NCBI GenBank assembly: GCA_003054695.1
Contig: QAZA01000025.1
Span: 124,001-188,000, forward strand
From: Verrucomicrobia bacterium LW23
GTDB taxonomy: Bacteria > Verrucomicrobiota > Verrucomicrobiia > Methylacidiphilales > UBA1321
DNA: 64,000 nt
Reading direction: 5' to 3'
Shown here: positions 20,523 to 40,540 of the stretch, one piece after another
Numbering within the stretch: the first letter of the stretch is position 1
How the letters are laid out: each line of letters opens with the position of its first letter
Position numbers and translations under genes: made by a program
Notes under the pieces: model-generated
Database searches by the model: none
What the model saw: the letters and a program-made list of their open reading frames with translations, nothing else
Told to the model about the DNA's origin: nothing

Positions 20523-20587
20523 CGGGGCTTTTGTGGGGCGGGGGCGTACGTTGCGAAAGCGTGAACGCCGACCTGATCGGCGATCGA

Positions 20588-20635
20588 AAGCGCCAAAGGC
20601 GCGAAAGCCTATAGCCCAGGGCGTAAGCCCTGGGT
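20588..20635 (+). repeat. Left 48-bp inverted repeat (REP-like) of the transposase element
   Basis: This segment contains two small palindromes, GCGCCAAAGGCGC and CCCAGGGCGTAAGCCCTGGG. Its exact reverse complement lies at 21248-21295, beyond the transposase gene. A short inner hairpin, GCGTCCTGTAGGGACGC at 20653-20669, also recurs inverted at 21214-21230. These are typical REP/BIME-type folds recognised by RAYT transposases. Confidence 0.9.
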
Positions 20636-20733
20636 TTGGGTTGTTTGTAGAGGCGTCCTGTAGGGACGCAACTGCGACAGCACGCACAACGTATTGCATT
20701 TACATGAACGTAATGCATGTGTACATACCGCGT

Positions 20734-21186
20734 ATGTCCCAATCGCTTTCGAATGTACTGATTCATGCAATATTCAGCACAAAAGAAAGGGCGCCCTGGC
20801 TTGTGTCAGAGATACGGGACGATCTGTGGCATTATCTTACCGCAATTCTCAATAATATCGATTGCCCATCCATCAAACTCGGCGGAATTGATGACCACGT
20901 CCACGTACTCTTCTCGCTTTCCAGAACGATGACGGTTGCGGATGTTATCAAGACACTCAAAGCGAACTCTTCAAAATGGATAAAGACAAAGAAATCAGAA
21001 CTTAAGAATTTTCAATGGCAGCAGGGGTACGCTGCGTTCTCTGTAAGTCCTTCTTCCCTTCCGCAAGTCATTACCTATATCCATAATCAGGAGAAGCACC
21101 ACAAGATGAGAACGTTTATGGAAGAATATATTTCCTTCCTGGATAAGCACGGAATCAAGTACGACCCCAAATACGTCTGGGATTGA
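20734..21186 (+). CDS. IS200-like Y1 (REP-associated, RAYT-type) transposase
   Basis: A 150-residue protein of the Y1 HUH transposase fold (PF01797-like). It starts MSQSLSNVLIHAIFSTKER, contains the metal-binding HUH motif in DDHVHVLFSL, and has the likely nucleophile Tyr in the helix VITYIHNQEKHHK. The ATG at 20734 gives the standard family N-terminus; an ATG at 20704 would add ten residues unlike the family. Base composition is distinctly more AT-rich than neighbouring genes, indicating separate origin. Both flanks carry palindromic repeats in inverted orientation, which is the arrangement of a REP-associated tyrosine transposase. Such enzymes cut single-stranded REP hairpins. No TnpB is present. 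Confidence 0.9.
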   Translation: MSQSLSNVLIHAIFSTKERAPWLVSEIRDDLWHYLTAILNNIDCPSIKLGGIDDHVHVLFSLSRTMTVADVIKTLKANSSKWIKTKKSELKNFQWQQGYAAFSVSPSSLPQVITYIHNQEKHHKMRTFMEEYISFLDKHGIKYDPKYVWD

Positions 21187-21247
21187 AGTTGAGGCCTTGT
21201 GCGATAGGCTGTTGCGTCCCTGTAGGACGCACCCCAATGCCACTCTG

Positions 21248-21295
21248 ACCCAGGGCTTACGCCCTGGGCTATAGGCTTTCGCGCCTTTGGCGCTT
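21248..21295 (-). repeat. Right 48-bp inverted repeat (REP-like)
   Basis: Exact reverse complement of 20588-20635. Both copies being identical suggests either recent movement or gene conversion. Confidence 0.9.
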
Positions 21296-21766
21296 CGGAT
21301 TCGGTGAGCTGGGTAGCCAGTGCTGTGTCAGAGATATAATTTAGGATAATGTAAATCTATGATAATCGTAACTTACATCAACGACGCTGTATTAGTCAGC
21401 CTGTCGTATCGTACTCGCTACCGGGCTTAACACCCCGTAGCGTGCTTTATCTTCCTCCAATACTTACCAGATCTGCCTATCGAGCTGCTCTGAACTAATG
21501 CCTGGCAACTTGCTCTGAGGTTCTTTACTGATGCGGGATTAATAGGAGAACGTTTCTTTCGTGCGTTGCTTAAATCGCTAAGGGCTATGCTCCTCGCGGC
21601 TTGCTTCGAGATACTCTGCTACAAATACACCGCCTCTTGGAGCGGAGATTTCTCTTGCCGCCCGGACTGACTTTCAGCCAAATCCGGCCTTTCCTTCGTC
21701 TAAGGTTTTTCGAAGGGGCTCTTCAGGTTCCCCCCAATAGCGGGGGCGGCGGAGGTTTGAGATAGT
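21296..21766. other. AT-richer intergenic region between RAYT element and GT2-receiver gene
   Basis: These 471 bp contain no convincing reading frame on either strand. Base composition is lower in GC than both flanks, like the transposase element, so part may be degenerate mobile DNA. It must include the promoter of the gene at 21767, which has a GGAGG ribosome site at 21751-21755. Confidence 0.5.
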
Positions 21767-29795: not shown

Positions 29796-29862
29796 CCACG
29801 ACGGATTTATGATGCGGACGATGAGATCATTTTGAAGACGCGTCTGGCCGCGGCGTTCTCCG

Positions 29863-30053
29863 AAGCGCCAAAGGCGCGAATGCCTATAGCCCAGGGCGTA
29901 ATCCCTGGGAGAGGATGAAAATCCGCAGCATTTTGTAGGAATGCAACATCGCCAGGCAGGCGGGCTGTTGCGTCCCTTCAGGACGCGATTCCGTTCCGGA
30001 CTCTCACCCAGGGCTTACGCCCTGGGCTATCGGCCTTCGCGCCTTCGGCGCTT
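29863..30053. mobile_element. Transposase-less relative of the RAYT element (MITE/BIME-like)
   Basis: Near-copies of the 48-bp repeat flanking the transposase occur here as a pair in inverted orientation (about 29863-29910 and 30007-30053). A degenerate inner hairpin (GCGTCCCTTCAGGACGC near 29970) is present but no gene. Compared with the 20.6-21.3 kb copies there are several substitutions, for example GTAATCC for GTAAGCC and CTATCGG for CTATAGG. The unit probably moved with help of the RAYT protein. Confidence 0.75.
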
Positions 30054-30072
30054 CGGAATCCCCTATCCGTGC

Positions 30073-40128: not shown

Positions 40129-40540
40129 AGCGGGTTAAGTACAGATGTAAGCACTCCCACTGAGAACCTCGACGAGGTTCCCATAACCTAGCCCAGGGCT
40201 CCCCGAACGAAGTGAGGGAGCCCTGGGACGCGGCGAAACGAGGACCAACCCCAACGTGGGTTGCATCCCTCCGTCACGACTTTGCCCGGCAATCAGGCGG
40301 CAACCGTATGCATTGTGTCTGTAAGGAATAGCTGTTGCAACAGTTGTTGCGCGGCGCCACACTTGGTTAAGTGGTCCTTATTCCTTTACTGTTATATCCT
40401 TTGATTGCGTCAAACCAATCCGCCCGCGGAGGGCTCCACGGTGTGCCGCGCCTAATCTCGGACGCCTGAGCCGCGTCCCCATCCCTTCGATTTCCGACCG
40501 TCTGTTCCCTACGCTGTATCCATTTGATTTGCAAACGCTT
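40129..40540. other. Intergenic region with REP-like double hairpin
   Basis: This 412-bp gap precedes the giant FHA-type gene. It contains a small GAACCTCG/CGAGGTTC hairpin near 40161 and a larger CCCAGGGCTCCC...GGGAGCCCTGGG hairpin at about 40192-40227. The latter shares the GCCCAGGGC core with the repeats around the RAYT element and may be a related fossil. Confidence 0.5.

Follow-up and report, generated by a model that had tools for sequence, protein, structure and literature searches.

The window analysed here, a stretch of 64,000 nucleotides from Verrucomicrobia bacterium LW23 (contig QAZA01000025.1, positions 124,001 to 188,000), holds a small transposase gene enclosed by long inverted repeats and raises the question of which family the transposase belongs to and whether it is the agent that spreads the repeats. 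The initial annotation had answered with a REP-associated tyrosine transposase (RAYT) bracketed by its own target repeats. The outer repeats are, as it had claimed, exactly complementary: a 48-mer at 20588–20635 (+) recurs with 0 mismatches at 21248–21295 (−), while 100 shuffles of the window gave 0 matches to it. Each 48-mer contains the two palindromes described there, here termed H1 and H2, the latter with the sequence CCCAGGGC-GTAA-GCCCTGGG and a TAG directly on its 5′ side. The 48-mers are parts of longer arms of 93 bp each, 83% complementary and 532 bp apart, in which the hairpins follow the order H1-H2-H3 with H1 outermost at both ends. The inner 17-bp hairpin, H3, is inverted as had been noted, so that every repeat part listed earlier is present; its membership in the arm unit had been overlooked, as had a second, gene-less arm pair elsewhere in the window. 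The features are as follows.

20583–20675, + strand: left arm, H1-H2-H3 (inverted match to 21208–21300; 62.7 bits with the covariance model R1)
20590–20602, + strand: H1 of the left arm, GCGCC-AAA-GGCGC, a palindrome at the outer edge of the unit
20612–20614, + strand: TAG at the 5′ foot of left H2, a candidate guide sequence (YAG in most arms)
20615–20634, + strand: H2 of the left arm (palindrome; covariation)
20653–20669, + strand: H3 of the left arm, GCGTCC TGTAG GGACGC, a hairpin of 17 nt
20734–21186, + strand: tnpA, Y1/HUH transposase of 150 aa (Pfam/NCBIfam, motif alignment, AF2 model)
21208–21300, − strand: right arm, reverse complement of the left three-hairpin unit (R1, 63.1 bits)
21214–21230, − strand: H3 of the right arm, a hairpin of 17 nt
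21249–21268, − strand: H2 of the right arm (palindrome)
21281–21293, − strand: H1 of the right arm (palindrome)
29859–30057, no strand: gene-less mini-element with arms at 29865–29950 (+) and 29964–30051 (−), 8.5 kb from tnpA

At 40166–40269 of the window the arm model matches weakly (E 0.004), possibly to a degraded arm.

The product of tnpA, for which an alternative in-frame start is possible upstream at 20704 (160-aa reading), carries the HUH motif and helix tyrosine that had been attributed to it, as H55 and H57 (DHVH) and Y115 of the 150-aa product, together with Q119 and H122-H123. The 160-aa reading matches Pfam PF01797 (Y1_Tnp) with an E value of 3.5e-25, and TnpA scores 63.8 bits against NCBIfam NF033573 (IS200/IS605 TnpA), above the cut-off of 55; a relative from locus L077 lies slightly under that cut-off at 53.8. 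Its designation as a RAYT has to be given up. NF047646, the REP-associated tyrosine transposase model with which the E. coli RayT control scores 179 bits, does not match TnpA, blastp finds no meaningful similarity to E. coli RayT, and the motif NP(L/V)(R/K)xG that follows the tyrosine of RAYTs (Y---NP) is absent from TnpA, where Q..HH is found instead. With an AlphaFold2 model of TnpA derived from 38 sequences (pLDDT 88), Foldseek gives ISDra2 TnpA as the best PDB match (E 1.4e-9) and places 29 IS200-type chains ahead of the RAYT structure 4er8 (E 9.3e-6). The signature around the tyrosine is YIHNQEKHH, in which Y115, Q119, H122 and H123 are invariant both in 20 and in 38 sequences; WQ precedes it at 95–96, and a helix at 128–138 after Y---Q forms an extra C-terminal region which is missing in two IS200 controls. 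The accessible text of the survey by Quentin et al. (2018; PMC6006769) defines a TnpAY1 subclass 1.2 by DH[IV]H, WQ, Y---Q--HH, a length of ~148 aa and a conserved C-terminal region, and describes it from Cyanobacteria and Bacteroidetes with REP given as ‘no’ and with no terminal secondary structure. Placed by the motifs, length and C-terminal region of this published description, TnpA is of the subclass 1.2 type.

Arms of the same design accompany such genes well beyond this locus. A close TnpA occurs in 13 of the 78 genomes of relatives, where inverted arms were flagged as gene-spanning at 17 of 28 loci (L065–L092). From at least 586 loci in named genomes the best 80 were taken, a sample close to the query rather than a random one, and two with short flanks were dropped; inverted arms (E ≤ 1e-5) are present at 63 of the 78 usable loci, against 478 of 6006 cross-locus pairings of upstream and downstream sequence. 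Judged by record titles, these loci belong to Verrucomicrobiota, Planctomycetota, Acidobacteriota, Bacteroidota, Fibrobacterota, Armatimonadota, Desulfobacterota and others. Given the arms at 63 of 78 loci, we read the published ‘no REP’ of subclass 1.2, an absence that had been reported, as needing correction. A tnpA of subclass-1.2-like type with inverted arms was also noted on the Persicobacter plasmid CP012861.1 (L253).

Architecture was analysed with the 109 arms of at least 98 nt out of 130 arms from 65 loci. A perfect H1-H2-H3 order is found in 70 of the 109, against 2 of 2180 shuffles, with a first linker of 7–13 nt and a second of 17–28 nt (a single exception has 37 nt). At the foot of H2 in these 70 arms the A is present in 64, the G in 65 and the preceding pyrimidine in 59, giving YAG; the base on its 5′ side is variable and is G in 8 of 70 arms, compared with the GT[AG]G foot of RAYT REPs. 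The stems covary across phyla: in an alignment of 26 arms, selected for short H2, both partners vary in 12 of 15 stem pairs, and paired cells amount to 96.2%, against 78.8% in shuffled alignments and at most 61.5% when the alignment is slid. The tails of H1 and H3 in one arm are alike, with LCS ≥ 4 in 29 of 62 compared with 0.128 for tails from different loci; the likeness may point to sites of paired cleavage or contact. A cleavage dinucleotide shared by these tails was considered and dropped, CT/CA being found at 0.66 against 0.57 with no clear enrichment.

The arms are also dispersed away from the transposase gene. Model R1 detects from 5 to at least 150 arms per genome in all 20 named genomes searched. 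TnpA with arms, TnpA only, arms only and neither are found in 12, 1, 8 and 57 of the 78 relatives, and in 62, 7, 26 and 193 of 288 genomes of the phylum (≥90% complete; best 15 arm matches per genome). Since arms adjoining tnpA enter these counts, free arms were defined as arms minus two per tnpA match. At least three free arms are present in 48 of 69 genomes with TnpA and in 16 of 219 without it (p 2e-24, kinship uncorrected), and among the relatives in 11 of 13 and 4 of 65 respectively. No arms were found in 7 of the 69 genomes with TnpA. A profile re-search (E ≤ 1e-5) of 20 genomes with arms and without TnpA, namely 18 of the 26 arms-only genomes and the relatives G003 and G033, left 18 again without TnpA, the exceptions being an internally deleted gene in G148 and weak matches in G003. 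Two outcomes that the initial annotation had named as damaging to its proposal can be judged from these figures. Restriction of the repeat to this site is contradicted by its dispersal in the window's own genome and in many others. Similar density without the transposase holds only in part: free arms track TnpA, yet 26 of the 219 genomes without TnpA keep arms, 10 of them with at least 10, which may be explained by loss of tnpA or by assembly gaps. A side observation concerns a Persicirhabdus genome (that of L131), in which a one-strand tandem array of arms with a period of ~101 bp lies at G080:C47:192385–193179.

The genome of the window (G000, 6.6 Mb) contains at least 54 matches to the left arm, a lower bound since 40 of 69 candidates were scored, and the H2 core is matched there with up to 3 mismatches 49+60 times, against 2+2 for the reversed pattern. 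It has two tnpA genes, 53% identical, each between inverted arms, and gene-less inverted arm pairs of ~195 bp which recur with H1 outermost in all. We examined 37 elements, the two tnpA units included; of the 35 gene-less ones, one lies inside an ORF predicted by the simple ORF caller from which neighbour orientation was taken, and one lies at an edge. The neighbouring genes are convergent for 17 of the 33 remaining gene-less elements, against 19 of 149 other intergenic gaps (Fisher p 4e-6); the other elements comprise 15 tandem cases and one divergent, and the other gaps 93 tandem and 37 divergent. Both the abundance of the repeat genome-wide and its clustering between convergent genes, checks suggested with the initial annotation, thus come out in its favour, and the preference of the arms for gene ends may arise from tolerance or from a role akin to that of a terminator. 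The elements L037 and L039 (C9 and C10 of this genome) are mirror-image copies with equal distances to their neighbours; they may form a segmental repeat, or a single locus may have been assembled or counted twice. A further palindromic insert, apparently another repeat family, lies between the arms in L045 (3061–3411) and L055 (3017–3362), around GGCTGTCGACA and CTTGGCGATCTTTCC.

Outside the arms many of the G000 elements carry a second type of end. An outer terminal inverted repeat (TIR; TAGAGCGGTTTCAATACG...) exceeds the 99% null on 28 of 37 elements, on one side in 19 and on both in 9, and is missing on both sides of the two tnpA units and of 7 of the other 35. In the regions examined, 21 of 37 matches resembling the TIR directly follow a TA. 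The same TIR begins decayed transposon copies at C38:13139–13911, C53:231345–231892 and C8:5403–6174 (L247–L250; TIR GAGCGGTTTCAATACGC), which from their protein sequence we take to be of the IS630 family. Because 28 of 37 elements have outer IS630-type ends and the tnpA copies do not, a DDE transposase probably spread many of the local copies; an arm pair would have been captured between IS630-type ends and then amplified in G000. The claim that this locus offers a clean model for REP spread does not withstand that observation. The idea that the outer TIRs represent a distinct target palindrome entered by the arms was rejected, there being no empty palindrome among 16 outer-repeat matches; the short ones among these retain parts of H1 and resemble products of deletion, and two are from the IS630-like element.

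Other genomes show how far the mobile unit extends. Gene-less arm pairs of ~190–280 bp are dispersed in genomes that carry tnpA units, with identical polarity in all arm pairs found. Among pairs selected from the best arm matches, 11 in the Terriglobus albidus genome of L157 (G083) are conserved as far as H1 and mostly dissimilar beyond its edge, with borders A|H1..H1'|T in 11 of 11 and right flanks common to some, and 11 of 11 in G020 and G033 have TA|..|T borders, mostly TTA|..|TAA. Six pairs in G012 have common flanks beyond H1 and this, together with the IS630-type ends in G000, indicates that what moves does not always correspond to the stretch from arm to arm. Remnants of the gene are preserved in two cases: in L256 of G148 the arms are intact and the tnpA between them is internally deleted, with MAQSLSQILLHLVFSTKNRDPLIPADK fused in frame to EHHKKKTFKEEF...DERYVWE, and the mini-element L216 of G083 aligns with L157 across both arms and on into the ends of tnpA. 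Mini-elements can therefore arise from a tnpA unit by deletion. In a comparison of joined flanks with the loci examined, neither a transposition event nor a clean empty site came to light; one weak spanning match of 72% among the matches listed was not accepted as an empty site.

We propose, at a probability of roughly two in three, that tnpA and the arms constitute a REPtron-like system of IS200 descent in which TnpA mobilises arm pairs in trans; the chemistry of this action we put forward with less confidence. The proposal draws on the shared architecture, its covariation across phyla, the dispersal of gene-less pairs with one polarity, the link to TnpA and the tnpA remnants. TnpA is not a RAYT by family, yet it is RAYT-like in arrangement. 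The unit would be a subclass-1.2 Y1 transposase between two inverted cognate REP-like units laid out as H1 – linker – YAG – H2 – linker – H3 with H1 outermost. A TnpA dimer would bind the folded single-stranded arm through H2 and the YAG guide, with H1 and H3 helping, cut near the H1 edges and move or copy arm pairs in trans, while deletion of tnpA between the arms would yield non-autonomous mini-elements; in G000 an arm pair lying between IS630-type ends would have been amplified in an extra step by an IS630-type DDE transposase. The likely guide is the YAG at the foot of H2, by analogy with IS608 and TnpAREP, for which the accessible text of PMC8266576 describes a tetranucleotide 5′ of the hairpin that guides cleavage, GTAG selecting CT or CA. 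The inversion of the arms places one arm in the reading sense on each strand. Two mechanistic points speak against our proposal: the IS608 pathway does not directly accommodate inverted ends, and TnpAREP is reported in the same text to cut REP and not its reverse complement.

Four other accounts have to be weighed against this proposal, of which the strongest, though unlikely, takes the arms of G000 to be the interior of IS630-family MITEs moved by a DDE transposase with TIR TAGAGCGGTTTCAATACG and a TA target, the Y1 enzyme being uninvolved. The outer TIRs, the TA preceding them and the decayed copies with an identical TIR are what it would predict, and it accounts for local spread, but not for the architecture; both tnpA copies and 7 of 35 other elements lack the TIR on either side, pairs in G083 and in G020/G033 end at H1 with no such TIRs, and free arms follow TnpA over 288 genomes. 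Somewhat less probable again, and disfavoured, is an ordinary insertion sequence of the IS200/IS605 family whose ends are unusual and which by chance has left many deletion derivatives. Although the NF033573 score and the nearest structures, the TnpAs of ISDra2 and IS608, would suit it, the ends are long and inverted rather than subterminal hairpins on the same strand, two tnpA copies only 53% identical stand against dozens of gene-less arms in G000, and two IS200 controls have no counterpart of the additional C-terminal region that follows Y---Q. The combination of same-orientation subterminal hairpins, no inverted ends and near-identical copies that characterizes IS200/IS605 elements is not what is found here.

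The remaining two accounts we regard as very improbable. Retention of the arms as host transcription terminators or RNA stability elements, with tnpA a passenger, would explain the convergent bias and the single divergent case, but any tolerated insertion would show an equal bias, and the arms flank tnpA and track it between related genomes. Least probable of all is a canonical RAYT with its REPs: the layout resembles REP-rayt-REP, the palindromes are extragenic and dispersed and YAG is like GTAG, whereas the protein lacks both the NP motif and any match to NF047646 or meaningful blastp similarity to RayT, and 4er8 ranks under the IS200-type chains.

Extended to subclass 1.2 as a whole, the proposal of mobilisation by TnpA becomes more tentative, and we would put it somewhat short of an even chance: TnpAs of this subclass may mobilise widespread, unnamed three-hairpin REPIN-like elements of ~190–280 bp, present in many phyla, with a separate origin in the IS200 branch, and an IS630 hijack in the lineage of the window would have left these elements there with two unrelated movers. 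The accessible text of the published survey (PMC6006769) presents subclass 1.2 as an IS200-like branch without IS or REP features, and in the literature, mostly that with open access, we found no repeat partner for it. With a cognate repeat, defined by its hairpins, foot motif, borders and an intermediate with an internal deletion, a role for the subclass can be tested; such a repeat suggests a partnership of REP and transposase beyond the RAYTs, and would account for abundant palindromic repeats in little-studied phyla.

Among known systems TnpA most resembles subclass 1.2 as set out in the available text of PMC6006769, sharing DH[IV]H, WQ, Y---Q--HH, a length of ~148–150 aa, the C-terminal region and the few divergent copies per genome, and differing from it in the inverted arms that flank the gene, the many phyla and the dispersal. 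Class 3 in the same text also pairs a Y motif like that of IS200 with REPtron-like hairpins and a high copy number, and is set apart by its described Y----Q, longer core and CnGA foot. With IS200/IS605 elements such as IS608 and ISDra2 the system shares the Y1 core fold, YxxxQ and hairpin recognition, although the ends of those elements are not inverted repeats and they have no dispersed arm pairs. The TIRYT/TIRtrons, whose TIR-flanked Y1 genes are mapped to class 2 in PMC6006769, are likewise Y1 genes in long inverted repeats, some of them genome-repeated, but have the consensus GGGGWSAS and, in the available text of PMC3733652, no reported three-hairpin order. In arrangement the nearest parallel is with the RAYT/TnpAREP proteins of class 2 and their REPs, BIMEs and REPINs (PMC2817692, PMC8266576, PMC3116915), which share a gene between inverted dispersed repeats, inverted pairs scattered through the genome, repeats that co-occur with the transposase and a guide-like motif at the hairpin foot. 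Unlike a RAYT, TnpA here comes from the IS200 side, with Q rather than NP, and unlike a REP the unit comprises three hairpins in ~90 nt with YAG at the foot, where REPs have GT[AG]G.
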